From: Nodosilinea nodulosa PCC 7104
GTDB lineage: Bacteria; Cyanobacteriota; Cyanobacteriia; Phormidesmidales; Phormidesmidaceae
DNA: 64,000 nt
Reading direction: 5' to 3'
NCBI RefSeq assembly: GCF_000309385.1
Contig: NZ_JH976538.1
Span: forward strand, 313,332-377,331
Below are positions 7,448-26,411 of the stretch, piece by piece. Made by a program: the position numbers and the translations under genes. The notes under the pieces are model-generated. The model saw only the letters and a list, made by a program, of their open reading frames with translations. It was not told the DNA's origin and made no database searches. How positions within the stretch are numbered: position 1 is the first letter of the stretch; every line of letters starts with the position of its first letter.

Positions 7448-7483
7448 GATTTGATGGAGTAGGAGCCGCTCACTGTACCCACT

Positions 7484-10164: not shown

Positions 10165-12957
10165 CTACTCAGCCGCACCTATCAGCGTAAACGCAGCCCA
10201 GTTCCGAGGGTCGGGATACTGCCGCATCGTGGTTAACATCCCCTGTCGCAGAGCTTGGGCGTTGTCCTGCCCCTGGTCGAGTTGACGGTAAAATTCGGTC
10301 ATCAAGGCCTGGGTCGAGGCGTCGTTGACAGACCATAAGGACACCACCACACTCGGCACCCCCGCTGTAATCAGCGATCGCGATAGCCCCACCACGCCAT
10401 CGCTCGTGATCCGCCCTCGCCCGGTATCACAGGCACTCAGTACCGCCAGTTTGGCCTGCAATGGTAGCGACAGAATTTCAGCCGAAGTCAGCAGCCCATC
10501 TTCTCCCCCGCTAGGAGCTAGAGCGATCGCTCCTGGCAGGTCGAGGCTGCCGTAGGCTTGGGGATCACCGTAGTCGAGCAGACCGTGGGTGGCTAGGTGG
10601 ATCAGTTGGGCCGAGGTGATTTGCTGCTTGACGCGGGCTTCGCTAGCCTGATCGCCCACCAGTACGGGGGCATGCAGAAACTGGCCGATGGCTTCGGCTT
10701 CAGCCTTGGCACCAGGCAAGTCTGGAAGTTGCGTTTGAGTAAAGCTGCCATGACTGTCGGGTATCTCCACCGTAGGCATGGTCGGATCCCCCACAATCAG
10801 ATCTTGCCCAGCACTCAGGGTTAGCGGCGATCGCGAGGCTGCCGCCTGACTCGCCAAGCCAAAGACCTGAATTGAGGGGGCCGTCAAAATCGTATGGTTC
10901 TGGATCAGGTAGGTGCCGTCTGGGGCTTGCAGGGCGGCAAAGGGTACCAGAAACAGGTTGCCCTGGGGAATAAAGGCTACTCTGGCAGCAGGGTCGGTCG
11001 GGAGTAAATCTGCGATCGGGGCAATCAGCGTTTGATATAAAGCTTTGAGCTGGTCGGGGCGATTAGTCGATTCGATAGCGATCGTCGCTCTGAGGTCAGA
11101 GACCAGAGTTGTCAGCTCTGAGTTGTCCGGGCGACCCCGGTAGAGCGGGCCATCGCTGAGTGCGACGATTGGGTTGATGGAAACATCGGGGTTATCAGCG
11201 TCCTTGAAGTTGACAACGCGAAACTGGATGTCGCCAGAGGGGGATACCACCCAGATATATAGCGCCTGGTCAGAGAACAGTGAGTAGGTGACCAGGGTGG
11301 TGTGAGTATCGCAGGCAATCTGCTGGATTTCACTAACACCAGGAGGATGGGCCAGCGTTTTCGCCAATTGCGTAGCCTGGGGGTCTCCAGCAGTAATACG
11401 CTTAGCGAGTTGCCAGACAAAAGCGCGGGCACGGCCTCGTTCGGAAGTAGCGAGGGACTCATTGGTTTTGCCTTGGGCCATTAAGGCGCTTTGCAGTTCG
11501 GCATAGGCAGTTGCTTGAGTGTCAGCGATGGAAATGAGCTGATTATCAGGCAAATCGGTGCGGAGAGACTCATAGACATTAATAGACTGGCGCAGCAACG
11601 ATTCTGCTTGAGAAAACTGCCCTATTTTGCCGAGGGCAACACCTTGATTTTCGAGATCGGTGGCCTGCCCCTGGAGATCACCGATCTCGCGGTCAATCGC
11701 TAAGGCTTGCTGATAGAAGTCAATGGCCTGCCCATACCGACCCTGAGAATCGTAGGCAAGGCCCAGGTTGCCCAAGTCAGCTGCTTCGCCTTGGCGGTAG
11801 CTGATCTCGCGGTCAATTGCCAATGCCTGCTGATGGAAGTCAATGGCCTGCTTATACTGACCCAGAGAACTATAGGCAAGGCCCAGATCTCCCAGGGAGT
11901 TGGCTTCGCCTTGCCGGTCGCCGAGTTCCTGGTCAATCGTTAAAGCTTGCTGAAGGAAGTCAATGGCCTGCTCATACCGACCCAGGGAATAATATGCAAC
12001 GCCCAGGTTGCCCAGAGAATCGGCTTCGCCCTGACGGTCGCCAATTTCGCGATGGATGGTTAACGCTTGCTGGTGGGAGTTAATAGCCGGATTATACTGA
12101 CCCAGGGAAACGTAGGTATTGCCGAGGGTACTTAAATCAGATGCTTCGCCCCGGCGGTCGCCGATCTTATGCTCAATCGCTAAGGCTTGTTGCAGGAGAT
12201 TAATGCCCCGCTCATACTGTCCCAGAGAACGATAGGCAAGGCCCAGGTTCCCCAGGGAATTGGCTTCGCCCCGCTGATCGCCGATCTTGTGCTCAATCGC
12301 TAAGGCTTGCTGAAGAAAGTCAATGCCCTGCTCATACTGCCCCAGAGAACCATAGGCAAGACCCAGATTACCTAAGGAATTGGCCTCTCCCTGGCGGTCG
12401 CCGATCTTGCGGGCAATCGCTAAAGCTTGCTGAAGAAAGTCAATACCCCGCTCATATTGATCCAGGGAATTATAGAGAAGGCCCAGGTTGCCCAAATCAG
12501 CTTCTTCCCCCTGGCTATCGCCGAGATCACGGGCAATCGCTAAAGCTTGTTGAAGGAAGTCAATACTACGCTCATACTGCCCCAGGGAATTATAGAGAAG
12601 GCCCAGATTGCCCAAATCAGCTTCTTCCCCCTGGTGATCGCCAAGCTGCCGATAGGTTTCCAAAGCCTGCTCCCAAGACTGTAATGCCTCCTGAAACTGG
12701 CTGTACTGGTATTGCTCAAGGCCTTGCTGCAACAACTGATCTGCTTCGACTTTACGGTCGGTTGCGCTATCATTCTGGGCCAGCATCACCGGGGTTGATG
12801 ATTGGGGGAGAAATCGAGGTACTTGCGAGACTCCTGAAGCCTGATTCTCCGGCTGGGGGAGGAACTGAATGTCTTTTGAAAAACCCGGTTTTTGAGCAAA
12901 TGGCACCATCAGAGCCGCAAGCACAGCGAGGCTGAATAGCTTTGTAGAGTAGCCCAT
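10165..12957 (-). CDS. Secreted TPR-CHAT protease
   Basis: From the ATG at 12957 this is a 930-residue protein. It has a Sec signal peptide (LFSLAVLAALMVPFAQ), a linker, and about ten TPR repeats of the 40-residue type (QALAI...GDRQGEA..LGNLGLAY.SLGQYE). A linker and a C-terminal CHAT domain follow, the caspase-related clan CD fold. The dyad is His about 791 in HLATHG and Cys about 843 in LSACDTGRG. The repeats are nearly identical to each other, which points to recent internal duplication. I prefer 12957 to a longer start at 12993 because the signal peptide then begins directly, and because the paralogue at 13105-16746 has the same arrangement. CHAT proteases of this kind are typically switched on by a partner that binds the TPR part. 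Confidence 0.85.
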   Translation of the reverse strand: MGYSTKLFSLAVLAALMVPFAQKPGFSKDIQFLPQPENQASGVSQVPRFLPQSSTPVMLAQNDSATDRKVEADQLLQQGLEQYQYSQFQEALQSWEQALETYRQLGDHQGEEADLGNLGLLYNSLGQYERSIDFLQQALAIARDLGDSQGEEADLGNLGLLYNSLDQYERGIDFLQQALAIARKIGDRQGEANSLGNLGLAYGSLGQYEQGIDFLQQALAIEHKIGDQRGEANSLGNLGLAYRSLGQYERGINLLQQALAIEHKIGDRRGEASDLSTLGNTYVSLGQYNPAINSHQQALTIHREIGDRQGEADSLGNLGVAYYSLGRYEQAIDFLQQALTIDQELGDRQGEANSLGDLGLAYSSLGQYKQAIDFHQQALAIDREISYRQGEAADLGNLGLAYDSQGRYGQAIDFYQQALAIDREIGDLQGQATDLENQGVALGKIGQFSQAESLLRQSINVYESLRTDLPDNQLISIADTQATAYAELQSALMAQGKTNESLATSERGRARAFVWQLAKRITAGDPQATQLAKTLAHPPGVSEIQQIACDTHTTLVTYSLFSDQALYIWVVSPSGDIQFRVVNFKDADNPDVSINPIVALSDGPLYRGRPDNSELTTLVSDLRATIAIESTNRPDQLKALYQTLIAPIADLLPTDPAARVAFIPQGNLFLVPFAALQAPDGTYLIQNHTILTAPSIQVFGLASQAAASRSPLTLSAGQDLIVGDPTMPTVEIPDSHGSFTQTQLPDLPGAKAEAEAIGQFLHAPVLVGDQASEARVKQQITSAQLIHLATHGLLDYGDPQAYGSLDLPGAIALAPSGGEDGLLTSAEILSLPLQAKLAVLSACDTGRGRITSDGVVGLSRSLITAGVPSVVVSLWSVNDASTQALMTEFYRQLDQGQDNAQALRQGMLTTMRQYPDPRNWAAFTLIGAAE

Positions 12958-13030
12958 GGAAGGTTCGCCCAAATTTCGAGGTGACATCAGCATATAGGTC
13001 TGGGGGAGAAAGACTTATTCGCCCATGGGC
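12958..13030 (-). promoter_or_regulatory. Shared upstream element of the TPR-CHAT genes, copy A
   Basis: The 73 bases upstream of the start are almost identical to those at 16747-16818 in front of the paralogous CHAT gene. Shared parts include a perfect palindrome GCCCATGGGC at the far end, GTCTTTCTCCCCC in the middle, a TATATG/TATATA block that could be a -10 hexamer, and GATGTCACC before the start. The gene neighbours in between are unlike, so this is either a conserved promoter/operator or a remnant of the duplication. Confidence 0.55.
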
Positions 13031-13104: not shown

Positions 13105-16100
13105 TTACAATCCATTGCCAATCAGGATGAACGGTGCCCAGTAGTAAGGATGACTCAGGCGGCCTTGCAGCGCCATGGGCGTTTCGGTATTTTCGACCAC
13201 AACGGTGCCGCGATCGCCGCCGCCAATACCCATGTCGTCGGCAATCAGGGCCTGCTGGGCAGCTTGCAGCGCCGCAGTTTTGGTCATGCCCTGCTGGAGA
13301 GCGGTGTAGAAGGCGGTCATCAATACCTGGGTGCTGTTGTCATTGACCTCCCAGAGGGAGGCAATAACGGCTTTTGCGCCTCGGGCCTGGAACTGGTAGC
13401 CCAATCCCAAGATCTGTTCACCGTTGTTGTCGAAGCCGCCCAACCCCGTATCACAAGCGCTGAGCACAACTAAATCCACATTGGACAGATACCAGATTTC
13501 GATATCCTTCAGGGTGGGAGCGTCGCCATTGCCGAAGAGAATAAATGACTGGCTAGGATCGCCGGGGAGAAAGGCCGCATGGGTGGCAAAATGCAGAATG
13601 TTGAATCGCCCGACGTCGGCCACCACCTCCCGGAGGCTGAACGCCCGATCGATGAGAGTCGTGGTGCTGGGCAGGGCAGTTCTAACCTGGAGCACTTCCT
13701 CCCCCGCAAAGGGTAACCCCGAAAAAGTCATGCCGTCTATTGAATAGGAAATAGCGCGATCGGCAAAGGCTCCGGCTAAAACGTGGGGTTGTGGCTGAGG
13801 TTGGGCGGTGAGTTCTTGCAGAGAGCGGGCCGTAATATTGTTGATCCGAAACCGCTGCGCTAGCCACTGGTCGCCATCGTAAAGTGCCCCCAGGGGAATG
13901 TAGCGCAGCGCCCCATCGGGGGAGTAAATCAGGGTGTCTACGCCGGCAGCGGCCAGGTCAGCTTCGAGGGGTTGGATCAACCACTGGTAGAGCTGCTGAG
14001 CCGGGGTTTTCGCATCAGAGCGAGGGTTTTCTAAGGCCTGGCGAAACTCGGTAATGGTGGCGTTGAGCTGGCTGCGCCCCACCCCTTCGACAGTGCGTCG
14101 CAGGGGCTCGGTGTTGGCCGTGGTAATTACCAGCTCAATGCGGTCGTCTAGAATGAGCGGGTAGATTAAGGCGGCATGGAGATCGGCCAGGTTGTTGCGC
14201 AATCCGGAGAGATCTTCTAGGTCAACGGTTTGCCGCAGCGTTTGGCGGTCAAGCTGATTGAGCAGATGCTCAACATCGTCGCTGGTGGCAAAGGCGTTGA
14301 ACTGACCGGCCAGGTCACTCTGTAGGGCGGCTAATTGCAGGCGACGCTGCTCTTCGTCAGGAGTAATTTGGCCCGCGTTCTTTTTGGCGTTGAGTTCGGC
14401 CAGTTCAGCGCCCAGGGCAATGGCGCTGTCTTGTAGCGACTGATAGCGATCGAGAATGTCCTGCTCCGGTCGCCAGTATTCAACCCCACTGGCGGTTTGG
14501 GCATTGCCGCGCACGTCTTGCAGGTAGTCGTCGAGTTCCTGAACTTTGAGCAGGTCGAGCACGCGCTGGGCTTCGAGCACGCGATCGCGTTGCAGCAGCA
14601 GGTCGGCCAGGTTGCGGTAGGTCTTCGCAATGGAGTTGGTGTAGGAGGTCTGGAGGTCGGTATCGAGACCGCGAATGCTGCCGCGAATGGCTTCGAAGGC
14701 GTTGACAGATTGTTTATAGAAGACAATGGCCAGCTCGGGTTGGTTTTGAGACGCAAGGACGCCGCCAATATTGCTGAGGGAGGTGGCCGCCGTGGCGCGA
14801 TCGCCGATAGCTTGCAGAATCACCAAAGCCTGTTGGTAATAGCTCAGTGCTTCCGAATATTGGCCTAGATTGTTGTAGGCCCAGCCAATATTGTTTAGCG
14901 AAATCCCTTCACCGTTGCGATCGCCAATATCTCGACGAATGGCCAGCGCCTGTTGGTAATAGTTCAGCGCCTCTGCGTGCTGCTCTAACCTGCCGTAAAT
15001 AAAACCAATATTATTTAGCGTAGTAGATTCGCCGCTGCGATCGCCTATTTTTTGCTGAATCGCTAGCGCCTGTTGGTAATAGTCCAGCGCCTTTGGGTAG
15101 TCGCCTAAACTGTCATAGATGCCGCCAATATTGTTCAGCGAGATCGCTTCACCACTTTGGTCACTTATTTCTTGGCTAATCGCCAGGGACTGCTGATAAT
15201 AGTCCAGCGCCTTTGGGTAGTCGCCTAAGCGATCATAGATATAGCCAACATTATTTAGCGAGTTGCTTTCACCTCTGCGATCGCCAATCTCTTGACGAAT
15301 CGCCAGCGACCGTTGGTAATAGTCCAAGGCTTCTGAATATTGACCTGACCTATCGTAAATAATGCCAATATTACTTAGCGAGTCACCTTCGCCATTGCGA
15401 TCGCCTATGTCTTGACGAATGGCCAGTGCCTGTTGGTAATAGTCCAGCGCCTTTGGATAGTCGCCTAACCGATCATAGACATTGCCAATGTTATTTAGCG
15501 AAACGGCTTCACCACTGCGGTTATTAACCTCTTGGAGAATTGCCAGCGACTGTTGGTAATACCTCAGGGCTTCGTCATACTGGCCTAAACTAATATAAAC
15601 GAAGCCAATATTGTTGAATGAGCTAGCTTCAAGGCTACGATCATGAATAGATTGACTAATCGCCAGCGATCGCTGGTGATAGTCTAGGGCTTCGGGGTAC
15701 TGACCTAAATCACCATAGGCGCTGCCAATGTTATTCAGCAAAGTGGCTTCGCCACGGCGATCGTCTAGCTCCTGGCGAATGGCCAACGACTGCTGATAAT
15801 ACTCCAGTGCATTCGAGTACTGACCTAAATCGCTATAGTTATTGCCAATATTGTTGAGCGATATGGCCTCACCACCGCGATCGGCGATCGCCCGGTAAAT
15901 GGCTAAAGACTGCTCGTAATACTCCGATGCCTTTGCATGCTGCCCCAGGTCATTGTAAGCAGTGCCAATATTGTTGAGCGATGTGGCTTCGCCCCAGCGA
16001 CTTTCCTCCGGAAACGCTTCGCGAACAGCCTCTTGCTGGTAGATGGCTAAAGACTGCTGAAAGCGATCCACTGCTTCTGGGTAATGGGCTGTATTCAGCA

Positions 16101-16746
16101 GCCGCAAGCCCTGGCTGTTTAAATCGTCTGCCCTGTACTTTTTTACCGCTGGGTCATCGGGCGAAGTTAAAACTACCCTCAGCCGGTAAGCACCCTGTTG
16201 GGTGTCATCATAGGCACCTGCCAATACTCGATACGTGCCAGCTTCAGGCAGCACAACTGCAACAGCAGAATTGCTGTTGCCATTGCCGATGTCGTCATTT
16301 TGGGCAAGGGCCTCTCCCTGGCTATTTATTAGCAGCAGGTAGGTATCAAACTCAGCGCTTTCCAGGGTAATAATGACCGCCTGCCCGGCGTTAACCTCAA
16401 AGGTGTAGGTGTCGTAGAAGCTGTTGTCCGCCGAAAAAGTTGAGTCCCCCGCTTCTAATACGCCCTCCACCTGTAGCAGCGGTTCAGCTTCACCATTGAC
16501 TTGTTTAGTCTGCCGAGGTTGGATATCTATCGGCTTTACCCCAGGCCCAGCAGGAATCGCTTCAGGCGACAGCCACTTTTCTGGTTTCCCATCCACAGCC
16601 ATATCGCGAGCCGCATTCTGATTGGCTGACCAGCGATCGGGCTGGCGGATTGCCCCAGGGGTTGCCGCAAGCCCAGGCAGCTGAATGGCGGGCACCATCA
16701 GCGCCGTGGCAACTGCCAAACCAAGCTGCTTCGCAGAGTAACGCAT
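13105..16746 (-). CDS. Secreted PPC-TPR-CHAT protease
   Basis: From the ATG at 16746 this is a 1213-residue protein. The order is a Sec signal peptide (LGLAVATALMVPAIQLPGLA), a PPC-type beta domain (about 90-190, with DTYTFEVNAGQAVIITLES and LPEAGTYRVLAG), about eleven TPR repeats (NNIG..Y..LGQY.EALDYYQQSLAI), a helical linker, and a C-terminal CHAT domain. The dyad is His about 1056 in HFATHA and Cys about 1098 in LSACDTGLGG. The PPC domain is usual in secreted proteases and may bind cell-surface material. The start at 16746 is preferred over 16845 because it exposes the signal peptide and lies at the end of the shared upstream element. A longer reading frame would run into the MITE. Confidence 0.85.
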   Translation of the reverse strand: MRYSAKQLGLAVATALMVPAIQLPGLAATPGAIRQPDRWSANQNAARDMAVDGKPEKWLSPEAIPAGPGVKPIDIQPRQTKQVNGEAEPLLQVEGVLEAGDSTFSADNSFYDTYTFEVNAGQAVIITLESAEFDTYLLLINSQGEALAQNDDIGNGNSNSAVAVVLPEAGTYRVLAGAYDDTQQGAYRLRVVLTSPDDPAVKKYRADDLNSQGLRLLNTAHYPEAVDRFQQSLAIYQQEAVREAFPEESRWGEATSLNNIGTAYNDLGQHAKASEYYEQSLAIYRAIADRGGEAISLNNIGNNYSDLGQYSNALEYYQQSLAIRQELDDRRGEATLLNNIGSAYGDLGQYPEALDYHQRSLAISQSIHDRSLEASSFNNIGFVYISLGQYDEALRYYQQSLAILQEVNNRSGEAVSLNNIGNVYDRLGDYPKALDYYQQALAIRQDIGDRNGEGDSLSNIGIIYDRSGQYSEALDYYQRSLAIRQEIGDRRGESNSLNNVGYIYDRLGDYPKALDYYQQSLAISQEISDQSGEAISLNNIGGIYDSLGDYPKALDYYQQALAIQQKIGDRSGESTTLNNIGFIYGRLEQHAEALNYYQQALAIRRDIGDRNGEGISLNNIGWAYNNLGQYSEALSYYQQALVILQAIGDRATAATSLSNIGGVLASQNQPELAIVFYKQSVNAFEAIRGSIRGLDTDLQTSYTNSIAKTYRNLADLLLQRDRVLEAQRVLDLLKVQELDDYLQDVRGNAQTASGVEYWRPEQDILDRYQSLQDSAIALGAELAELNAKKNAGQITPDEEQRRLQLAALQSDLAGQFNAFATSDDVEHLLNQLDRQTLRQTVDLEDLSGLRNNLADLHAALIYPLILDDRIELVITTANTEPLRRTVEGVGRSQLNATITEFRQALENPRSDAKTPAQQLYQWLIQPLEADLAAAGVDTLIYSPDGALRYIPLGALYDGDQWLAQRFRINNITARSLQELTAQPQPQPHVLAGAFADRAISYSIDGMTFSGLPFAGEEVLQVRTALPSTTTLIDRAFSLREVVADVGRFNILHFATHAAFLPGDPSQSFILFGNGDAPTLKDIEIWYLSNVDLVVLSACDTGLGGFDNNGEQILGLGYQFQARGAKAVIASLWEVNDNSTQVLMTAFYTALQQGMTKTAALQAAQQALIADDMGIGGGDRGTVVVENTETPMALQGRLSHPYYWAPFILIGNGL

Positions 16747-16818
16747 AGAAGGCTCACTCAATTTTGGGGTGACATCGGTATATAGGTCCGGGGGAGAAAG
16801 ACTGATTCGCCCATGGGC
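16747..16818 (-). promoter_or_regulatory. Shared upstream element of the TPR-CHAT genes, copy B
   Basis: This is the second copy of the element described at 12958-13030, with about nine in ten bases the same. Its outer palindrome GCCCATGGGC is at 16809-16818. A weaker echo (GACTTATGCGCCCA) occurs at 23720-23733 upstream of the minus-strand TPR gene. Confidence 0.55.
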
Positions 16819-16834
16819 GGAGGGTTTAGGCTGG

Positions 16835-16973
16835 CTGACTGACAAAACCCTTGCAACCCCTATGCTGCCGTAGGTTGGGTGAAGCGCCAGCGTAACCCAA
16901 CAAAACCGTCACTGGTGTTGGGTTTTGCTTCGCTCAACACCAACCTACATCAGAACTTTTGTCAGTCAATCAG
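16835..16973. repeat. MITE-like palindromic element, copy 2
   Basis: The ends are CTGACTGACAAAA and CTTTTGTCAGTCAATCAG. The interior GTAGGTTGGGTGAAGCGCC is inverted towards CTTCGCTCAACACCAACCTAC. It is the same family as 4085-4260. It lies between the CHAT gene and the DUF928-like gene, 16 bases outside the shared regulatory element. Confidence 0.75.
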
Positions 16974-16998
16974 GGGTTTAGGTGGCTCTACCCAATGC

Positions 16999-17700
16999 CT
17001 AGGGTGATAACTCCTGGCTGCAAATGTCTTCTACGGCCGCCTCACGGGCGGCGATCAGGTTTTCAGAGGGCGACTCCACGGAGAACATCGCCTGAAAACT
17101 ATCTGCAAGCAGGCCGTGGTCAAAGAAATAGTTTGCCCTTGCGGCAGCCCTATCGTCCTGGCTGGCTCCGTCGGCGGCTAGCTCGGCATCTAGCTGCTCT
17201 AGCTCGGTGGTGATGCGATCGCGCCCATCCCCGGCGGCCATCACCCGAAACGGAATATCGTGCTCAACCAATTCTCGCAGGCGGTTGCGCTGGTAAAAAA
17301 TCCACTCGTAGGACTGCCCTGGCTCTAGGGGCGCGCCGCTGTAGATCACCTGCACGCCAGATTCATTCGGCCTGACCGGGGTGGGCTGGGGAGTATGTTC
17401 TGCGCCCAGGGGCTTCAGCACAAAGCTTTCTACCGGGCCTTTGACTACCGCCAGCGGCTGCACAGTCCACACCGTTTCGTCGGTGCCGGGGTTCACCAGG
17501 CAGAGCGACCCGCCATCCCGCGAGCCGCTGTCTCGCCCCCGGCCCTGGTGCCCGGCATCGCGGCCCAAGAACTCGCGAATGCGCTCATAGGCGCTGGCCC
17601 GCTGAGCCTGAGCCGCACTCATCCAGGGCCACGGCGGCCCGGCGGTAGCGGCGATCGCCACCGCCAGCGAGCCTGCCACCATCCAGCTAAATCGGTTCAT
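16999..17700 (-). CDS. Secreted DUF928-like protein
   Basis: This 233-residue protein has an N-terminal signal peptide (VAGSLAVAIAATAGPPWPWMSAAQA). The body fits the pattern of DUF928: a short Gly/Arg-rich segment, a CLVNPG strand, the core VWTVQPL...ESFVLKPL, the LEPGQSYEWIFY strand, and a helical tail. DUF928 proteins are cyanobacterial, exported, and often encoded beside CHASE2, DUF1822 and CHAT-TPR genes, as here. The gene overlaps the CHAT-CHASE2 stop by 14 bp, which supports co-transcription. The function is unknown; by context it may sit in the periplasm near the CHASE2 sensor. The family assignment is by pattern only. Confidence 0.6.
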   Translation of the reverse strand: MNRFSWMVAGSLAVAIAATAGPPWPWMSAAQAQRASAYERIREFLGRDAGHQGRGRDSGSRDGGSLCLVNPGTDETVWTVQPLAVVKGPVESFVLKPLGAEHTPQPTPVRPNESGVQVIYSGAPLEPGQSYEWIFYQRNRLRELVEHDIPFRVMAAGDGRDRITTELEQLDAELAADGASQDDRAAARANYFFDHGLLADSFQAMFSVESPSENLIAAREAAVEDICSQELSP

Positions 17701-20080
17701 AGGTCTTCTCCTTAAGTAAAGGTAATGCGTATAGCCAAACTGTCAGCGCAGGCCACAGCCAGGGCAGCATGACCGCAGCGCTGATGTAGAGCTGCAAACT
17801 GGTGAGGCCGTAGGCGATCGTAACGGCAGCCAGCAAAGCCCCAAACTTGAGCGGGTTTAGCCGGGGCCGCTGGGCCAAGTACAGGGCTAAGCCTTTGCCT
17901 GCCAGTGCCGCCACCAAAACCATCGCCAGGTCGGGGATGGGGATGACCAGACGGTGGGTCAGCCAGTGGTGCGTCGCGTAGGCGTGGGCTTCTCCGCCCG
18001 TAAAACTGGTGGCCTCCGGTTGCCAGTACCCCATGGCCGGGGGCTGGGGCAGGTTGTCATCGCCGTTTTGGGCAATCCCAGCGGCATCGTAGCCGCCGGG
18101 GGCAATGATGACCACGCGGTTCTTTAGCGGCTGGCGGCCCAGGGCGGCCTGGGGGGCCTCAAGCAGCTGCCAGGCGGGCACGGTCTGGTAGACCTGCTGG
18201 GGGGGAATTGAGAAATCCAGCAGGGGTTGCAGCCAGGTTTGCCCCAGGTAGCCAGACAGTTGGGCCAGGGGATGGGGGGTAACCCAGGACGGCAGGCCCA
18301 GGTCGTGGTCGCTGAGATAGAGCTGCACCTGGTTTTGAAGCGGTTCAGGGCGTTCCCCAGGGCGGGGAATGCCGGGGCTTTGGTCACCCGCTGGCTGGCT
18401 CAGCCGCTGGGCCGTGGCCAGTTGGTAGCTAAAGGGAGTGCCGTAGTTGATGGGGGGCTGCCGGGTGGGCAACCGCCAAAAAGGCAGCCAGGCATCCCCC
18501 TGCAATACCCAGTCAGGATTGGCGGCCTGCCCATAGATGTGGCTCCAGCTACCGTGGGGGTTTTTGCTGGTAATAAACACTGGCCAGGTCTGGTTTTGCG
18601 CCACGGCGCGGCGAACAGCCTGGTTTAGCGCCGGGTCGTTGGCGGGCTGAGGCAGGTCGAGCAGGTAGTCCACCCCGATGACGGTGGCCTGCTGCTCGAC
18701 CAGGCGGTTGATCAGATCGGCGAGGAGGGCGCGGTTGATGGGTTTAAAGTCTGTGGCGCCCCAGCGGGAAAACGTGTCTGGATCGATCTGCACCAGCACC
18801 ACCGGAGGCTGGGAGGGTTTCGCTATCTGCCCTGTACTGTCCCGATAGATGGCCTGGGCCAGCACCCGATGATCGATCAGCCAGTAGTGGACAGGGGGAA
18901 TCAGGCTGAGCAGGGCGATCGCGCCTACGACCAGCGCCTCTCGCCGTCGGGGCCGCCACTGGCGTACGATCGCCCGCCATCCCACAGGCTGTACCTGGTA
19001 GGGCACCGAATCGGGATGGCGAAACAGCGAGGGGACTAAGTAGGCCGACGGATAGGTCAGGTTTTGCTCCAGTTTGAGAAACCGACAGGCTCCGATTAGG
19101 GCCTCCTGCACGTTTTGGTAGCGGGCCAGCCGCTGCAAGAGCTGGACCAAAAACATCTGGGCCACGTCGTTGTGAACGGGCTCGCGCATTACCGCCACCT
19201 GGCTCAGACCGAGGTTAATTAACCCACTGGCAATATCCAGACCGCTGCACGAGTTAAACAGCGCAAATTGCAGTCCGTGCTGCTGGGCCTGCTGTAGGTA
19301 GGGGCTGAGTTCTTTAATTGAGATGGCGTTGTTGGGGGCGATCGCGATCTGCCCCCCCACCAGGGCCGCTTCGTTGCTGTGCCCGGCAAAAAACAGCACG
19401 TCCCACCCCAGCGGATCGGCAATTTCCTGGCAAATGCGCCGCTTCAGGGCGACGGCTTCTTCCCCCGGCTGCCAGCCGACGTAGTGAATATCCAGCATGG
19501 CTTTTTGGCTATTTAGCGCGGTTCGCTCGCCGGTAAAGTTGAGCCCGGTCTCATCGCCCAAAATGGCCAGCACCCTGGCTTTGCCCCGCCGAAACGAGCG
19601 GCGGTCGGCGGTGGCCGCCCGGATGTGGGCGGGCGATCGCACAATCTGCATGTGTTGACCCACCTCCCAGGTCTCCCAGGGCAGCCGGGCGATGTCGAGG
19701 GATGAGCAGGTCAAAAACAGCTCGGTCTTGGTCTGCTCAGCGGAGAGCTGGGCCGGCTTTGAGGGTAGGGCCAACTCCTGGCGCAGGTCAAACAACGCGC
19801 CATGCTTCAGCCAGGTGTAAAACTCTGACAGCAGCCGGGCCTCGGCCAGCCCCAGCTCTCGGTGCCAGTCTACCTCTGGGGCGATCGCCTGCCCCACGGC
19901 GCCCACCCGCCCCCGCAGCGCCTGCTTGTAATAGCCCAGGTAAGCCCGCCGCCACGACTCGTACAGCATCGGCAGCGCCTGGGGAAATTTCAGGCTGGCG
20001 GTCAGCCGCTGCCCTTTGCCCCAGGTGAGATCAAACAGGCAACTCTGGTCAATTTTATGAATGCTGAGCCGGTAAGTCAT
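17687..20080 (-). CDS. CHAT-CHASE2 membrane sensor protease
   Basis: This 797-residue protein (from the ATG at 20080) has an N-terminal CHAT domain. The dyad is His234 in FFAGHS and Cys278 in FNSCSG. A membrane helix follows at about 381-402, then an extracytoplasmic CHASE2 domain (about 403-700) and three hydrophobic segments near the C-terminus. CHASE2 domains sense unknown extracellular cues and usually feed kinases or cyclases. Here the cytoplasmic output would be a peptidase. The gene is the third in a minus-strand run: sigma-like, DUF1822, CHAT-CHASE2, DUF928. An alternative start at 20107 adds nine residues. The topology is inferred from hydrophobicity. Confidence 0.85.
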   Translation of the reverse strand: MTYRLSIHKIDQSCLFDLTWGKGQRLTASLKFPQALPMLYESWRRAYLGYYKQALRGRVGAVGQAIAPEVDWHRELGLAEARLLSEFYTWLKHGALFDLRQELALPSKPAQLSAEQTKTELFLTCSSLDIARLPWETWEVGQHMQIVRSPAHIRAATADRRSFRRGKARVLAILGDETGLNFTGERTALNSQKAMLDIHYVGWQPGEEAVALKRRICQEIADPLGWDVLFFAGHSNEAALVGGQIAIAPNNAISIKELSPYLQQAQQHGLQFALFNSCSGLDIASGLINLGLSQVAVMREPVHNDVAQMFLVQLLQRLARYQNVQEALIGACRFLKLEQNLTYPSAYLVPSLFRHPDSVPYQVQPVGWRAIVRQWRPRRREALVVGAIALLSLIPPVHYWLIDHRVLAQAIYRDSTGQIAKPSQPPVVLVQIDPDTFSRWGATDFKPINRALLADLINRLVEQQATVIGVDYLLDLPQPANDPALNQAVRRAVAQNQTWPVFITSKNPHGSWSHIYGQAANPDWVLQGDAWLPFWRLPTRQPPINYGTPFSYQLATAQRLSQPAGDQSPGIPRPGERPEPLQNQVQLYLSDHDLGLPSWVTPHPLAQLSGYLGQTWLQPLLDFSIPPQQVYQTVPAWQLLEAPQAALGRQPLKNRVVIIAPGGYDAAGIAQNGDDNLPQPPAMGYWQPEATSFTGGEAHAYATHHWLTHRLVIPIPDLAMVLVAALAGKGLALYLAQRPRLNPLKFGALLAAVTIAYGLTSLQLYISAAVMLPWLWPALTVWLYALPLLKEKTYEPI

Positions 20081-20167
20081 GGCAGAAAGATAGAGCAAAG
20101 GTCTCAATGTCGGATGTTGGGACTGGCGCTTTTGGCTGGGCCATCCTTACGTCGCGGCCCAGGCGGC

Positions 20168-21304
20168 TCAGGCGTCTGGATTGAAGACAAAGGGGGGCCA
20201 GTTGAGGGTGGAGCCATTGGGCAGCTTGACGGTGACCGTAAACTGCTCGTCCCAGGTGCCAATCACTTGGGCGTAGAGGTAGGAGGCTGTCCCGTCGTCG
20301 GTCAGGGTTTGCTCAGCCAGGGTGGTGGCGGCATCGCACACCCTCAGGCCGGTGCCGGGGAGCAGATGTTGTCCGGCAGCAGGGCCTAAAAACAAAAACA
20401 GTGACCATTCGGGATGCTGGGTTTCAAACATCGTCCAGGTCAGGGCGTAGAGGCGCAGGGGTAGCCCCAGCGGCTGTAAGTCGGTGAAGGCCCCCCGCGC
20501 CGTCGGCGGAATCGTAACGCCCGCAGGCGCGAGGTCGAGCAGCACGGCTTCTAGCTGCTCGGCTGGGGTGGTGGGCAGCGGCATCAGGGCATTGCCGGGG
20601 GCCAGGGGCGGCAATAGCGTCCAGGCCAGGGTTTCAGCCACCGTATCGAGCTGGTCGCGCAGCCAGCGACCGGCGTTGATCAGCCCGCCCGTTGTCTGCC
20701 CGAGGGCTGGTGGCAGGCCGGTGGCCGCGATCGGGGCCGGGGCCGCCAGCTGCTCTGGGTTCAGGCAGCTCAAATAGAGCAGCATGTCCTCTGGGCTGGT
20801 GTCAAAGTAGCGCACCGGCAGGGTATAGGTGCCGCTGGCGCTGGCGACCAGGCTGGTCTGCTGGCAGTGGGCGAGCAGGCGATCGCGGCGCAGCCCCGCC
20901 AAAATCGTCACCTGGTCGGCCTCCTCATGCACCTCGGCCAAAATGTAGAGGTGCGCGAAGTTGGTACGGTCGTCCAGCGTGCCCTGGGGAATAGTCACCA
21001 CCTCGTCGCTGAGGCTACCCTGGGCCACCAGGCAAAGCCGAAAGTCATTGACCCGATAGAGCCTATCTGGAGTCGGAACCTGGTCGGGCGCGTAGCGGAG
21101 GGATAGTCCACCGCTCCCGGCGGCTAGCCACTGTTGCAGGCCCGCCAGGGCCATGGCCCGCAGAAACGTCGGCCACTGCTGGGCCAGATCCGCCTCCCGC
21201 CGACAGATCTCGGCGGCCCAGCGGATCGACTCGGCAGTCAGGGTGACCGTCGTCGATCGCAGCGGCTCAAATTCAAAATCCTGGGGTTCGGTGGTGTAGC
21301 TCAT
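20168..21304 (-). CDS. DUF1822 family protein
   Basis: From the ATG at 21304 this is a 378-residue soluble protein with the segments expected of DUF1822: an N-terminal helix about AESIRWAAEICRREADLAQ, PEDMLLYLSCLNPEQL in the middle, and a C-terminal ASYLYAQVIGTWDEQFTV strand. No catalytic motif is visible. DUF1822 genes in cyanobacteria commonly sit between a sigma-like gene and a CHASE2 gene, exactly as here, so a role in the same signalling unit is inferred. A longer frame begins at 21355 and overlaps the upstream stop, but its extra residues do not look conserved. Confidence 0.7.
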   Translation of the reverse strand: MSYTTEPQDFEFEPLRSTTVTLTAESIRWAAEICRREADLAQQWPTFLRAMALAGLQQWLAAGSGGLSLRYAPDQVPTPDRLYRVNDFRLCLVAQGSLSDEVVTIPQGTLDDRTNFAHLYILAEVHEEADQVTILAGLRRDRLLAHCQQTSLVASASGTYTLPVRYFDTSPEDMLLYLSCLNPEQLAAPAPIAATGLPPALGQTTGGLINAGRWLRDQLDTVAETLAWTLLPPLAPGNALMPLPTTPAEQLEAVLLDLAPAGVTIPPTARGAFTDLQPLGLPLRLYALTWTMFETQHPEWSLFLFLGPAAGQHLLPGTGLRVCDAATTLAEQTLTDDGTASYLYAQVIGTWDEQFTVTVKLPNGSTLNWPPFVFNPDA

Positions 21305-21351
21305 AGGAGAACGATGGGCGAATGGAGATGAAGAAAACAGTAAAGTAACCA

Positions 21352-22725
21352 TCACTCGGTACCTGGCATAAATTGATCAATTGCGGTGCAGAGATGGCGG
21401 GCAAACAAGCTCCTAGCGGTACGGTTTTTAGGAATTTTGGCTTCGGCCTCGGCTTCGGCCATCATCTGGTCAACCTCTTCGCTCAGGAGAGCCTCTAAAG
21501 TGTGGTCAATAGCGCGTAGCCGGTCGGCAGACACATAGCTCAGCGCCTGCTGACGCACGGTTTCGTATAGCTGGGGCAGCAGCCGATGGCGCACGTCGGC
21601 CTGTAGCTGTTTCCGGTTGAGGAAGCGAGAGACCTGCACCTGCGTGCTGAGGCCAATTTCGGCGGCTAGCTGGCCCATCGCCTGCCCCTGGCAGTAAAAC
21701 AGGTGAAGCCCCCGCACGTAGGCTCTGTCCTGGGGTGGCTGGCGGCTTTGCAGTCGATCTATATTGGCTTGAATGGCCTGGGCGATCGCCTCGTCCAGGC
21801 CGGCTTCCAGGGCCTCGCGGTACGCCTGCAAAAATTCCTCTTGGTCGTCCACCTCCAGGGGGGAATGACCGCCAGCAATCCGATCCCACTCATGGTCCTC
21901 GGGCTGGTAGATTGGCCCGCTACCGCCCCGCATGACAATCCGGTGCTGGCGCAGCCGATCGGCCAGCTGGTTGAGCTGTATCAAGACCTCCCTGGCCGAA
22001 ATGTCGGGATTGATATCGCGCAGCTGCTCGGGGGTGGGTACCTGGCAGCGCCCGGTTTTGCCCGTTTGGCGTTGGGCCATGCGATCGCGCCGATACACCC
22101 GGTGATACCGCTCCAGTAGAACCACCGCCTGGGTGACTTCGTATTCGCTACAGAGGTGATACTGCCGCAAAATGCGCTGCACCTGCTCCAGGCTGGTGTC
22201 GTTCAAAATCGCCCAGTCGCTGGCCCGGTACAGCCCCTTTTCAAGCAAGAGCTGGTTGAGTTCGGTGTGGTTTTGGGTCAGTCGGCTGCTCCAGGTGCTC
22301 AGGGCACCCTTGTTTACGTCATAGGTCTGAAGAATCTCCAGGGTGAAAAACCTATGGGCGGGAGCGATCTGCCCGTCGTCGTCAAGCACCTGGGCCAATA
22401 GCTCGGCCGCTTTAAATCCATAGGTTTCACCAAACCTGGCCGCCAACCCAACGCAGGCCTGGTGAATGTGATGGGTGACATAGCACCGCAGGCTGAGCTG
22501 AGCCAGATCGCGATCGGGCGAACGAGCCGGTGCTGCTAGGTCTGCTGGCGATCGCCAGAGGGTCAGCAGCGATCGCTGAAGCTCATGCTCAGGGGTGTCG
22601 GGGGCCGCAAGTAAACTGGCAAAGGTAGCCTGCACCCAGGTCTGCACCTGGGCCAGTACCTGGAATTGGCACTGCCCCGAGCCAGTCAGGCGAACCAGTT
22701 GCCAATAGCGAAAAGCGTTGTCCAT
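21352..22725 (-). CDS. Sigma-70-like/HTH regulatory protein of the CHASE2-DUF1822 unit
   Basis: From the ATG at 22725 this is a 457-residue, largely helical protein. A segment ILQTYDVNKGALSTWSSRLTQ resembles sigma factor region 2, and a later segment (QGQAMGQLAAEIGLSTQVQVSRFLNRKQLQADVR) looks like a helix-turn-helix. This fits a divergent sigma-like transcription regulator. It is the promoter-proximal gene of the minus-strand run and is followed by DUF1822, CHAT-CHASE2 and DUF928. I infer that it carries the transcriptional output of the membrane protease. No conserved DNA-binding residues can be verified by eye, so the class is tentative. Confidence 0.55.
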   Translation of the reverse strand: MDNAFRYWQLVRLTGSGQCQFQVLAQVQTWVQATFASLLAAPDTPEHELQRSLLTLWRSPADLAAPARSPDRDLAQLSLRCYVTHHIHQACVGLAARFGETYGFKAAELLAQVLDDDGQIAPAHRFFTLEILQTYDVNKGALSTWSSRLTQNHTELNQLLLEKGLYRASDWAILNDTSLEQVQRILRQYHLCSEYEVTQAVVLLERYHRVYRRDRMAQRQTGKTGRCQVPTPEQLRDINPDISAREVLIQLNQLADRLRQHRIVMRGGSGPIYQPEDHEWDRIAGGHSPLEVDDQEEFLQAYREALEAGLDEAIAQAIQANIDRLQSRQPPQDRAYVRGLHLFYCQGQAMGQLAAEIGLSTQVQVSRFLNRKQLQADVRHRLLPQLYETVRQQALSYVSADRLRAIDHTLEALLSEEVDQMMAEAEAEAKIPKNRTARSLFARHLCTAIDQFMPGTE

Positions 22726-22935
22726 GGAGTTGATCGGTGAAGCTGGTTTTAGTGTTGCATCGCCAGGCCCGTAAGCCAAAGATGCCGAACGTTGGAGGCT
22801 GAGAAACAGCGGGGTAGGTTGTGCAGGCCGCCGGGGCGGTATAGCCGTGGTCGCGTTGGTCAGGGCCGTAGGAAACGCAGGGAGGGTTGGGGCGTTGGGG
22901 TGTTGGGGCGTTGATCGGCGATTGGTCCGCTGAGT

Positions 22936-23667
22936 CTACTTAGCACTCTCCTCGTTCCCCAGGGCCAGGGCCTCCAGATCGTGCTTGAGGGCCAGATCTT
23001 GGTGACCGCAGACGCGGCAGACCTGAGCGATCAAATGCCGTATCTCGGCTTCAAACCAGCGCCCCTCCAGCGCAGTCTCGTGGAGCCGGCCAATATCCAG
23101 TGCCCCCTCGTAGCAGGCCAGGGCAAACCAGTACTGCCGCTGGGCGTGGTAAACCCGGCCCATATCCACCAGCACCAGGGCCTCCCCAACGTCATCGTGC
23201 AGCTGGTTGCGAAGGGCGAGGGCCTTTTCGAACCGTTTGAGCGCCAGAAAAAAGTGCCCCTGATGAAAATTGGCCTGGCCCAGCAGGTGTAGGGCGGCGG
23301 CATAGTCGCTGCGCACCATGGGTTGGTGGCCTTCGGCACGGAGGGCCTTAGTGAAGGTATAGGCTGCCAGCTCGGCCCAGCGGCGGGCCAGACTGTAGTC
23401 CTGCCAGTGCAGCATGATCGCTCCAATCTGGCGGCAAACGTGCCCGATGCCAATCAGATTGTCCTCAGCCTGAAACACCGCCAGGGACTGCTTGTAGCGG
23501 GCCATAGCCTGAGGCCATAGCCCCAGCTGGTAATACAGCAGCCCCTCAGTGCTGTGGGCCTGGCCGAGAAACGCCGAGGGTTGAGGGGGGCTAAGGGCAT
23601 TGGTCGCGCTTTGCAAAATCAAGTTGGCAGTAGCTACAGCGCATTGAAAGGCAAGCTTAGTATTCAT
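22936..23667 (-). CDS. TPR protein
   Basis: From the ATG at 23667 this is a 243-residue protein of about five TPR-like helix pairs (TEGLLYYQLGLWPQAMARYKQSLAVF, LLGQANFHQGHFFLALKRFEKALAL, VDMGRVYHAQRQYWFALACYEGAL). There is no clear signal peptide, so it may be cytoplasmic. The longer frame to 23766 adds a Cys/Arg-rich stretch unlikely to be real. It lies upstream of the sigma-like gene on the same strand, separated by 210 bp. It is probably an adaptor in the same signalling set. Confidence 0.65.
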   Translation of the reverse strand: MNTKLAFQCAVATANLILQSATNALSPPQPSAFLGQAHSTEGLLYYQLGLWPQAMARYKQSLAVFQAEDNLIGIGHVCRQIGAIMLHWQDYSLARRWAELAAYTFTKALRAEGHQPMVRSDYAAALHLLGQANFHQGHFFLALKRFEKALALRNQLHDDVGEALVLVDMGRVYHAQRQYWFALACYEGALDIGRLHETALEGRWFEAEIRHLIAQVCRVCGHQDLALKHDLEALALGNEESAK

Positions 23668-23942
23668 GGTGCAACAGAGGGATTGCGGGAGACATTCCCA
23701 CCTACTGCTGGCGGGGCAGGACTTATGCGCCCACCCAGGCAGTCCCCTTAGTAGACTGCGGCACAAGTATGGGGACTATTGCCAATCGCGAGGGAGCAGG
23801 GGAGCGAGGGAGCCAAGCGAGCTGGAGCAGTCGGCATATTTCCGCCTTCGAGTACTAGCTTTTGGACCTGTGAATAAGCTCAACCTCATCAGACACAGAT
23901 AGAAGCGAGTGGCCACTCACGCTGTTTATCCGGTGTGAACTC

Positions 23943-26411
23943 ATGCTTGAACCCAGTACCCTATCCGCTGGTTCCCCCCAAAGCCCCCTGGGTGGATCTG
24001 CCACTGCATCAGTTGGGGACGATCTCGGCGGCAATACCCTGCTCAACCTGCCTACCCCAAATCTCTCGGGGTTAGCCGATGGGCAACAACAGCTGCCCGA
24101 CCTGGCTCTTAGCAGCCCCAACCCCTTCGATGACCAAGCCACCGAACTCATCACCTCCGCCAGTGTTGTTTTGGCTGAGGCCTTAGCTGAGGCCGCCAAT
24201 GCCCCGGCGCCCGCATCCATGCCGGGATCGAAACCCGACGACCTGCTGGGGCTTGGCCCTGACCAGGCTCTAGTGGCTACCGCTCCCCTCCTATCGACCC
24301 AGGACAGCACCCTGAGCACCGCTCAGAATATAGGCGTCTTGGTCGGCGGGCGAGCCTTTGGCGGCAGCGTTAGCGCCAGCGACCCCGTTGACTTCTTTAC
24401 ATTTCAGCTCGATGCCCGCAGTGACATCAACCTGATGCTCTCTGGTCTCAGCAACGACGCCGACCTGTACCTGATTCAGGATGCCAACAATAACGGCCGC
24501 GTTGACTCTGGCGAAACCCTGGCCCAATCCACAGAACCTGGCACTGGCGTAGAAGCGATTACCTTTAACAACCTGCGGGCAGGGCGCTACTTCCTTGCCG
24601 TTGACCAATTCAGCGGCAGTACCAACTACAACCTCTACGCGGCGGCTTCGCCCGACGGTGGCGTGCACACCCAGCACGGCAACCTGCGAGCCAACACCTT
24701 TGAGCTATCTGGAACCAACACCTACACTGTGATATCGGGGAATGGCAACGTCGACTTTGGCTGTGGATGTGGGGATGTTCTCGATCTCTCGTCGATCTAC
24801 AGCAGCAGCGTCAGTTCCTGGAATCCTGCTACCGCCAGCGGTGGCGGCGTCATCTACGACCCCGGCAACGGGGGCCGCGTCTTTGATGCCCTGGGCCTCA
24901 GCAATGGTCGCCAAATTTTGATGGAAGGGCTAGATGGCATCCGGTTTCGGGACGGGTTTCTCAATCTCAACAGCGGCAGTCTGCCCAATGACCCGCTCTT
25001 TGCTGATCAGTGGAACCTGCACATGATGGGGGTTCACCAGGCCTGGCGCTTTACCCAGGGGTCTTCAGCGGTGCTGATGGGCATTGCCGACACGGGCCTG
25101 GCCCTGAGCCGCAGCGGCAATCTGCATCCCGATTTAGATGGCGAGCGCACCTACGGTGTCGCCAGTAATATCGATGACGATTTTGTCGGGTCAACCACGT
25201 CTCACGGTACGGCGGTTTACGGCATTATGGCGGCTGCCAGCAACAATGGGGTTGGCATGAGCGGCATTAACTGGCGCTCTGACGTAGTCGATATGGATGT
25301 CTTTGGTACCGATGCCTACGATCTGGACGCTGCCACCGCCATGATGACTGACTACGCCCAGTCAACGGGGCGACGCCTGGTTGTCAATATGAGTCTGGGT
25401 GCCCACGGCCCCGGTCCCGGGGCCATACCCGCCCTGGAGCAGCTGATTGCACAAAACCAGGACAACGCCCTGTTTGTAATTGCTTCGGGCAATGACGACG
25501 ATGGGTTTACCTCGTACCCGGCCACCCTGAGCCAGGTCTACGACAACGTTATGGCTGTGGGGGCCTCCTGGGGCGATCGCGATGCCGATGGCAACCCGAC
25601 CGAGCCAGGCGATCGCATCTCGTACCCCGACTGGTGGGGCAGCAACTATGGCTATGGCCTCTCGCTGATGGGGCCATCGGAGGTGATCGCCACCGCCGCC
25701 GGGCAAACCAGCGGCGGGGTAGGGTTTGGCTATTACCAAAATGCCCCAGATGGCACGCCTTTTAATGGCACCTCGGCGGCAGCCCCCAACGTTAGCGGTG
25801 TAGCCTCCCTGGTGTGGAGCGCCAACCCCTACCTGAGCGCGGGTCAGGTGAATAGCATTATGCAGCAGACCGCTGTAGACCTGGGCTTCCCCGGCTACGA
25901 CTATGAGTATGGCGCGGGCTTCGTCAATGCCGATGCTGCTGTGCGTCGGGCGATGGCCCTGGCGGGCACGCCGCTGCGGGGTAGCAGTGCCCAAACCTCT
26001 CTGGCGCTGCCGTTGGTTGCCGAAGATGCCCTGACGCTGGCGCTGCCGGTGCCGCAGGGGGGCGCGGCCTCTGGTCAGCCTGCCGGTGACAATGGGTTCT
26101 TAACTGCTGCGATCGCCCCTGCGCCAAGCGCAGCAGTGCAAGCCGATACCTACTCTCTCCCCTGGAGCGGCTGGGGCGATCGCTTCAGCGATCTGCGGGC
26201 CAATCTGAGCCAATCGCTCCCCGCCGACCCAGCTCAGACCTCGACAGATTTGCTGGGTGAGAGCGTCTTGCCTTTGGCCGAGGGGTCGTTTGAGGCAGCC
26301 TTGGCTCACCTTACCGAGCCTGCCTTGGCGGTTGAAGATAGGCTTGCCCCGCTCCAGGTTGACACTCCTTGGAACCTGGAGGCCCTGACGCAGAATCTGC
26401 TGGCTGCCTAG
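23943..26411 (+). CDS. Subtilisin-like protease with PPC domain (family S8)
   Basis: This is an 822-residue protein. Residues 1-115 are a low-complexity region without a Sec signal peptide. A PPC-type domain follows at about 120-235 (DPVDFFTFQLDARSDINLMLSGL, then LRAGRYFLAVDQFSGSTNYNLY). A short segment with VISGNGNVDFGCGCGDVLDL resembles hemolysin-type repeats. The S8 catalytic domain has Asp383 (GIADTGL), His421 (SHGTAVYG), the oxyanion Asn in IASGND, and Ser611 (FNGTSAAAPNVSG). The C-terminal 180 residues look unstructured. Missing Sec signal plus hemolysin-like residues suggest type I secretion, which is inference. The gene is divergent from the TPR gene. Confidence 0.85.
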   Translation: MLEPSTLSAGSPQSPLGGSATASVGDDLGGNTLLNLPTPNLSGLADGQQQLPDLALSSPNPFDDQATELITSASVVLAEALAEAANAPAPASMPGSKPDDLLGLGPDQALVATAPLLSTQDSTLSTAQNIGVLVGGRAFGGSVSASDPVDFFTFQLDARSDINLMLSGLSNDADLYLIQDANNNGRVDSGETLAQSTEPGTGVEAITFNNLRAGRYFLAVDQFSGSTNYNLYAAASPDGGVHTQHGNLRANTFELSGTNTYTVISGNGNVDFGCGCGDVLDLSSIYSSSVSSWNPATASGGGVIYDPGNGGRVFDALGLSNGRQILMEGLDGIRFRDGFLNLNSGSLPNDPLFADQWNLHMMGVHQAWRFTQGSSAVLMGIADTGLALSRSGNLHPDLDGERTYGVASNIDDDFVGSTTSHGTAVYGIMAAASNNGVGMSGINWRSDVVDMDVFGTDAYDLDAATAMMTDYAQSTGRRLVVNMSLGAHGPGPGAIPALEQLIAQNQDNALFVIASGNDDDGFTSYPATLSQVYDNVMAVGASWGDRDADGNPTEPGDRISYPDWWGSNYGYGLSLMGPSEVIATAAGQTSGGVGFGYYQNAPDGTPFNGTSAAAPNVSGVASLVWSANPYLSAGQVNSIMQQTAVDLGFPGYDYEYGAGFVNADAAVRRAMALAGTPLRGSSAQTSLALPLVAEDALTLALPVPQGGAASGQPAGDNGFLTAAIAPAPSAAVQADTYSLPWSGWGDRFSDLRANLSQSLPADPAQTSTDLLGESVLPLAEGSFEAALAHLTEPALAVEDRLAPLQVDTPWNLEALTQNLLAA

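Follow-up and report, generated by a model that had tools for sequence, protein, structure and literature searches.

A sigma-like gene, DUF1822 and a CHAT-CHASE2 gene in one run of Nodosilinea nodulosa PCC 7104, and a promoter-like element shared with nearby protease genes

A stretch of 64,000 nucleotides from the cyanobacterium Nodosilinea nodulosa PCC 7104 (NZ_JH976538.1, positions 313,332 to 377,331; hereafter the window) was analysed around a minus-strand run of four genes at 16999-22725. The run encodes a sigma-like protein (SIG), a DUF1822 protein, a CHAT-CHASE2 protein and a DUF928-like protein, and a promoter-like element recurs in front of SIG genes of relatives and in front of protease genes of the window. 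Start codons given for the window are proposals of this analysis, and ORF denotes an open reading frame. The run comprises:

21352-22725, minus strand: SIG, sigma-like gene, ATG at 22725 (ORF open to 22779; 21352-22779, 475 aa)
20168-21304, minus strand: DUF1822 gene, ATG at 21304 (PF08852, E = 4e-23)
17687-20080, minus strand: CHAT-CHASE2 gene, with N-terminal region, CHAT peptidase, transmembrane (TM) segment, CHASE2 and C-terminal TM segments (Pfam, hydropathy)
19247-19381, minus strand: catalytic His (H234) to Cys (C278) stretch of CHAT, numbered from the ATG at 20080
16999-17700, minus strand: fourth gene, DUF928-like, 233 aa, overlapping the CHAT-CHASE2 stop

Three minus-strand ORFs fill 17687-22725 in ORF calling; the DUF1822 ORF (20168-21355, 395 aa) begins with GTG at position 21355, where it overlaps the stop codon of SIG, and the CHAT-CHASE2 ORF spans 17687-20107 (806 aa). 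An earlier note on this DNA had placed the sigma-like, DUF1822 and CHAT-CHASE2 genes in one run, which these ORFs and their recurrent order in relatives confirm; its span, 17687-22725, holds the three genes correctly but omits the fourth gene and a trypsin/caspase unit at 6470-9808. The order SIG-DUF1822-CHAT/CHASE2-fourth gene is repeated across cyanobacteria in gene maps of 40 regions and 80 further loci, the latter being named genome records retrieved with the CHAT-CHASE2 alignment, many of them short contigs and two pairs overlapping. Among these 80 loci, SIG is present in 48, DUF1822 in 51 and the fourth gene in 65, while three order exceptions (L036, L087, L094) carry SIG behind the fourth gene. 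Since the same order recurs in relatives, the four-gene run is not due to chance, although the relatives counted do not equal independent lineages.

The available text of Kaur et al. (2021, eLife; PMC8195603) describes EACC2-caspase proteins with variable C-termini, e.g., CHASE2, encoded beside ECF sigma and DUF1822 genes, and already proposes for the family that a stimulus activates the peptidase and, through it, a coupled ECF sigma factor. In the systems covered there, the N-terminal module, which includes a caspase domain, is constant and the C-terminus variable, and many have sigma and DUF1822 neighbours; the window system resembles them in this arrangement. CHAT-CHASE2 has a conserved N-terminal region ahead of CHAT in 21 aligned proteins, EACC2-type by architecture only. 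The caspase-type domain with a variable C-terminus (here CHASE2) and the DUF1822 neighbour, supported by the PF08852 match and by the relatives' gene maps, would place the window protein among the EACC2-caspase systems. In a 244-genome sample of the phylum, a SIG match was found in 28 genomes, EACC2-CHAT in 71 and DUF1822 in 164 (155 above the family cut-off); the 6.9-Mb genome of N. nodulosa contains a single SIG match, SIG itself.

CHASE2 was detected by Pfam at aa 406-733 (E = 3.8e-18, 66.4 bits) and CHAT at aa 217-340 (E = 6.2e-5, 23.0 bits, slightly below the cut-off of 24); these are the only Pfam matches of the window protein, with no TPRs fused to CHAT. CHAT domains are grouped with caspases. 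H234 and C278 are invariant in 21 of 21 aligned CHAT-CHASE2 proteins, and in 99 of 102 CHASE2-class proteins the GH and SC pair is kept, as judged from pattern and spacing; the dyad is missing in L109, L141 and an L054 fragment. The His-Cys dyad expected of a CHAT peptidase thus appears intact by sequence. The CHAT-CHASE2 copies at 8553-10431 of L034 and 8073-10487 of L054 are interrupted by stops or frame breaks; both relatives carry further copies.

Hydropathy places helices of the window protein at aa 393-411, 720-738 and 757-775, with none near the N-terminus. Among the 102 family members scanned, a first helix was found in only 59 and an N-terminal helix in one, whereas three C-terminal helices were counted in 61 and two in 36. 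The mean number of Lys and Arg residues within 20 residues of the first helix is 4.41 before it and 2.75 after it. The orientation put forward in the earlier note, CHASE2 outside and CHAT inside, is thereby favoured, by hydropathy and charge counts only, and CHAT-CHASE2 would sit in the inner membrane with its protease domain in the cytoplasm. A caspase-family domain and CHASE2 also occur together in one protein in a Trichodesmium erythraeum metacaspase (PMC2853523); the available text of that paper does not take up a sigma-factor neighbourhood of the gene, the word "sigma" being absent from it.

The sigma-like identity of SIG, likewise claimed before, is invisible to Pfam and is backed by the predicted fold. 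No sigma match was obtained for the window SIG in Pfam or NCBIfam. Its structure model (pLDDT 90.5, from an alignment of 46 sequences) was structurally re-aligned with the top Foldseek candidates, and 50 of the 50 matches listed belong to RNA polymerase-sigma entries, with Z values of 7.1-8.1, residues 13-165 lying on sigma2 with Z 7.4 and 3.9 A over 113 residues. Rows of this re-alignment are titled by entry, not by chain, the sigma subunit being recognised from chain letters and residue ranges; we take 9a7s_A (title RPSD-RPOB) to be sigma-D from its length. In Foldseek, Thermus initiation complexes rank 1, 3 and 4 for SIG (E 0.21-0.28) among unrelated nearby ranks, and no match at E <=0.001 was returned for the SIG or the DUF1822 model. 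Profile-profile comparison of SIG with the genome's own sigma factors reached 88-90% when 12 of the 16 family matches were pooled; the matched stretches are short, 26 and 31 columns, and lie one in the sigma4-like and one in the sigma2-like part. By subset, five small sigma factors gave 54-62% and seven large ones 0.3-1.8%, and the control profiles of DUF1822 and CHAT-CHASE2 gave 0.2-0.3% with the same sigmas. A profile search of solved structures with SIG alignment A1 returned DMAP6 on top (E = 1e-4, unexplained), followed by helix-turn-helix matches including a DeoR-type regulator (E = 0.0019) and SigF (E = 0.062). The model is consistent with a sigma2/sigma4-type fold, that of the sigma-70 family. 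ECF sigma factors contain little beyond sigma2 and sigma4 and measure about 200 aa. SIG proteins, with 457-475 aa and extra helical regions, exceed this size, and we therefore name SIG sigma-like rather than ECF. In this length (475 aa) the window protein is unlike the ECF sigma factors described in the available text of PMC8195603.

DUF1822, whose gene adjoins SIG in most loci, would be the likely link between protease and sigma-like factor, as an inhibitor or adaptor of SIG. It is a natural candidate for this role and additionally neighbours EACC2-CHAT where a long SIG is lacking; in such loci a short gene lies beside DUF1822 before EACC2-CHAT, with a weak, sub-cut-off sigma match in three of eight scanned. 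A signal at CHASE2 would activate CHAT, DUF1822 would be cut and SIG, held by it until then, would be freed. CHAT could instead cut SIG itself, e.g., in a disordered loop, and residues 273-289 of the SIG model do form a low-confidence loop with confident parts on either side. This seems quite improbable to us, as the protein cut in the known precedent, Csx30, is an inhibitor and not a sigma factor (PMC10028731, available text) and as DUF1822 persists beside the short gene where a long SIG is lacking. Csx30 cleavage sites are not conserved between orthologues, according to the available text of PMC11106740, so a DUF1822 without a conserved site would be no objection to cleavage of DUF1822.

The N-terminal part of the DUF1822 model re-aligned with restriction-endonuclease-like structures (DpnI, Z 8.0, 3.8 A over 143) and the C-terminal part with an Ig-like domain. 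The endonuclease-like/Ig-like reading was left unused, both matches being middling and the catalytic motif unconfirmed. The model suggests that DUF1822 is not a TPR protein, contrary to the available text of PMC8195603. The fourth gene of the window has no Pfam or NCBIfam match, and DUF928 was matched by 8 of 19 members of its alignment. Its start resembles a signal peptide by eye, which is how signal peptides were assessed, and the hydropathy scan found no helix in the window member.

A link between the run and proteases at DNA level is the element TG[AC]ATAAG-N12-AG-N3-TA, a one-strand, bipartite, -35/-10-like sequence in which TG[AC]ATAAG and TA are spaced by 17 bp, as in a -35/-10 pair. 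It was first spotted by eye in the upstream regions of SIG relatives as TGAATAAG followed by CAG and TA at a fixed distance; a first multiple alignment had missed the whole-element register because distances to the start vary. In 114 loci (1.84 Mb, overlapping loci removed), the full pattern at spacing 12 has 70 matches in 40 loci, while 14 other spacings have 0-6 each. A simpler core, GAATAAG[TC]..AG, gives 51 matches at spacing 12 and side counts of 23 (spacing 18) and 14 (spacing 19), which drop to 1 and 3 once TA is required.

A looser core, TG[AC]ATA[AG]G-N12-[AG]G, was counted upstream of genes on the coding strand. It precedes 35 of 73 SIG genes (reverse strand, 0/73; Fisher 7e-24) and 12 of 85 TPR-CHAT-type genes (Fisher 2.5e-6), the Fisher values treating related genomes as independent, which they are not. 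Elsewhere it was found upstream of DUF1822 in 3/83, EACC2-CHAT in 1/106, the fourth gene in 0/77 and other long genes in 2/246 (reverse strand, 2), and in 42 of 3000 random windows (overlaps kept). Columns not used in the search are conserved among 34 distinct pre-SIG instances (A27 in 34/34, T26 in 31, A23 in 27, A31 in 27 and T36 in 31), whereas the spacer is hardly conserved. A matrix trained on one group scored >=14 for 14 of 56 held-out SIG genes and for 26 of 5000 random windows. Co-divergence of the element and SIG was also considered; the rank correlation between element score and SIG similarity was 0.44 (n=75) but only 0.18 (p 0.19) for 56 held-out loci, and co-divergence is therefore not claimed. 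A divergent SIG branch (L059-L062, L068-L070) is found with DUF1822 and, where seen, EACC2-CHAT without CHASE2, and its upstream sequences, e.g., TGCATATG..GCTGACAT, hint at a different element.

A matrix scan of the window detected five elements with scores of 14.9-29.6, the next-best score being 12.0; 4 Mb of first-order Markov sequence contained no score as high as these five. The elements and the genes around them are as follows:

6405-6437, plus strand: element, score 25.2, 65 nt before the trypsin-like protease
6470-7447, plus strand: trypsin-like serine protease (PF13365, E = 3.7e-11)
7484-9808, plus strand: caspase (C14) with DUF4384, directly 3' of the trypsin gene (PF00656, E = 6.3e-19)
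12989-13021, minus strand: element, score 29.6, 64 nt upstream of the proposed start codon of TPR-CHAT A
10165-12957, minus strand: TPR-CHAT A (TPRs, CHAT), ATG proposed, ORF reaching 12993
16777-16809, minus strand: element, score 22.7, 63 nt upstream of the proposed start codon of TPR-CHAT B
13105-16746, minus strand: TPR-CHAT B (PPC, TPRs, CHAT), ATG proposed, ORF reaching 16845
23697-23729, minus strand: weak element CGCATAAG..CAGCAGTA, score 14.9, 62 nt upstream of the proposed start codon of the TPR gene preceding SIG
22936-23667, minus strand: TPR protein encoded immediately ahead of SIG, ATG proposed, ORF reaching 23766
23871-23903, plus strand: element with TA shifted, score 27.9, 72 nt before the subtilase ATG
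23943-26411, plus strand: subtilase with PPC domain (PF00082, E = 8.2e-29)
26801-30811, plus strand: third TPR-CHAT gene, no element upstream

The 5' flanks of TPR-CHAT A and B are similar, so their elements are counted as one duplication. In the window scan, no element lies directly upstream of the third TPR-CHAT gene (26801) or of a second caspase gene (30912). The latter encodes a second caspase-DUF4384 protein (30912-33149) with a weak TAT-signal match and adjoins the third TPR-CHAT gene. As the element stands before both SIG operons and protease genes, one factor would control both, and SIG is the obvious candidate. It would bind the element as a sigma-70-family-like factor and drive the operon that encodes it, with no intermediary in roughly half of the relatives and perhaps via the leading TPR gene in the window, along with the TPR-CHATs, the trypsin-like protease with its caspase-DUF4384 neighbour, and the subtilase. 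The trypsin/caspase unit at 6470-9808 is a probable target of the system.

Several observations weigh against this assignment. Direct sequence evidence is weak, Pfam sigma region 4 being found in 1 of 31 aligned SIG members (E = 0.017) and SIG alignment A3 giving zero sigma matches in the solved-structure profile search. The Z values near 8 are in the tool's middling range for helical proteins, so that the sigma reading rests on the uniform match list and the profile-profile matches. The element was discovered in some of the counted loci themselves, and its core is missing before 38 of the 73 SIG genes and before 73 of the 85 TPR-CHAT-type genes; no element lies directly before SIG in relatives L031, L071 and L076, nor before the window SIG, where no score exceeds 8. 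The core also occurs in reverse before 3 of 85 TPR-CHAT-type genes, and before the relatives' subtilase genes (n=12, overlaps kept) it occurs once forward and four times in reverse. A wrong-spacing control of the strict pattern likewise has one match in the N. nodulosa genome, away from the match of the true pattern. The proposal of the earlier note that the system controls the protease cluster is backed at DNA level by the shared element, despite its absence directly before these 38 SIG genes and the window's own. Overall, the interpretation given in that note is partly supported. The weak sequence evidence and the 38 SIG genes without a core would also suit an element that is a real promoter or operator for another factor, SIG being then a DNA-binding regulator or unrelated to the element. 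We regard this as improbable given that the element is asymmetric, confined to one strand, spaced like a -35/-10 pair and placed before SIG in 35 of 73 cases, that the predicted fold of SIG fits sigma factors, and that seven EACC2 loci without a long SIG (L057, L058, L063-L067) contain no matrix match >=14.

TPR-CHAT A has the only strict-pattern match of the whole 6.9-Mb genome, where a looser pattern matches nine times, three of them in the window, with four matches for a reversed control. Over the 244 genomes the strict pattern matched in 96 versus 78 for the wrong-spacing control, so the presence of the element alone does not separate genomes. In genome G002, 7 of 8 strict matches fall within 1386061-1416169, around its operon, and in genome G066 8 of 10 fall within 2037150-2077900, the wrong-spacing control giving 0 in both. 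An identical 26-mer, GAATAAGCCCGTGCGCCATAGTTATA, fits the strict pattern in at least 15 genomes of family f7 (e.g., G103:C1:3071579-3071604).

Elements scoring >=18 stand before 78 genes of the 80 loci: 18 SIG, 16 TPR-CHAT-type, 14 TPR, 3 subtilase, 2 DUF1822 and 25 unlabelled. Pfam, applied to 32 of the 39 TPR or unlabelled genes, identified 4 trypsins, 3 caspases, 10 TPR proteins, 4 with RTX repeats and 3 with PPC domains. In Calothrix brevissima NIES-22 (L148), a large two-partner secretion (TPS) protein at 15750-19853 lies directly behind a good element. A TPR-CHAT-type gene is inserted between DUF1822 and CHAT-CHASE2 in 13 of the 80 loci, 11 of which we take from their titles to be Nostoc-group records; such an insertion could produce an equivalent coupling with no separate promoter for the TPR-CHAT-type gene. 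CHAT genes also cluster near the operons: within 15 kb, at least 21 were observed in nine genomes versus 2.1 expected (about tenfold), the genomes being hand-picked, the count taken among the matches listed and the expectation uniform. Two of the nine, G174 and G129, have no clustered CHAT gene among the matches listed.

Such a setting also allows CHAT-CHASE2 to be an output. SIG would then be freed in another way to induce a protease/caspase death or defence module, with CHAT-CHASE2 among its executioners and working through its own cleavage, the autopeptidase activation that the available text of PMC8195603 suggests for the family. CHAT-CHASE2 lies inside the SIG run, so probably in its own regulon, and the element-linked caspase, trypsin and TPR-CHAT genes resemble a death module. 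Sigma operons are usually autoregulated, however, and their members are not thereby outputs; the autoregulation of ECF sigma factors is stated in the available text of PMC10028731. Moreover, sigma-like and DUF1822 partners also accompany EACC2-CHAT proteins without CHASE2. On balance an output role is unlikely, if a serious contender.

As a whole, we tentatively prefer to explain the system as a membrane-anchored counterpart of the Craspase-type switch without the CRISPR part, an explanation that is plausible but far from secure. In Craspase, a CHAT protease cuts Csx30, an inhibitor of an ECF-like sigma factor (PMC10028731, available text), and the locus (Csx29 TPR-CHAT, Csx30, CASP-sigma) likewise combines a CHAT-type protease, a sigma factor and, there, sigma sites. 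Unlike Craspase, the run has no guide-RNA effector among its four genes; Cas7-11/gRAMP was absent from the 15 window genes given to Pfam, the genome not having been searched for it. Unlike Csx29, the window protease lacks TPRs and carries its own transmembrane CHASE2, the putative sensor. The proposed path from an envelope signal to sigma release by proteolysis is also that of RseA/RpoE (partly after the available text of PMC10028731, partly general background), with the difference that the sensor of the present system would be fused to a protease domain lying in the cytoplasm. A fuller reading, to which we give somewhat less credence, is a signalling route widespread in cyanobacteria, in which an outside cue perceived by CHASE2 lets CHAT cut DUF1822 and so frees a divergent sigma factor with its own promoter class, raising a self-amplifying protease arsenal. 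This arsenal would consist of TPR-CHATs (probably exported), trypsin-like proteases, caspases and subtilases, and possibly serve colony-level defence or cell death.

The purpose of cyanobacterial caspase-like proteins has long been debated; if correct, our preferred explanation would connect them with a transcriptional switch whose sensor lies outside the cell, and the release of a sigma factor by a CHAT protease would not be restricted to CRISPR systems. The family and its logic are already in print as a prediction in the available text of PMC8195603, in which the word "promoter" is absent and "CHAT" occurs only within an author name. The sigma-like predicted fold of SIG, the shared element, its putative targets in the window and the clustering of CHAT genes near the operons are new. 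They offer a concrete promoter and target list, testable with reporters, for a family present in that text only as predicted domains and neighbourhoods. A promoter or regulon of this family is untreated in the titles and abstracts found, most subscription journals and preprints lying outside the search. DUF1822 appears in the available text of PMC9679502 only in a variant table, that of PMC12691664 reports a CHAT gene beside a diversity-generating element, and PMC8195603 was not among the DUF928 literature matches.

Rfam and tRNA scans of the window gave no matches. Close to its left end, at 1904-3910, the window carries a gene for an SbmA/BacA-like ABC transporter.

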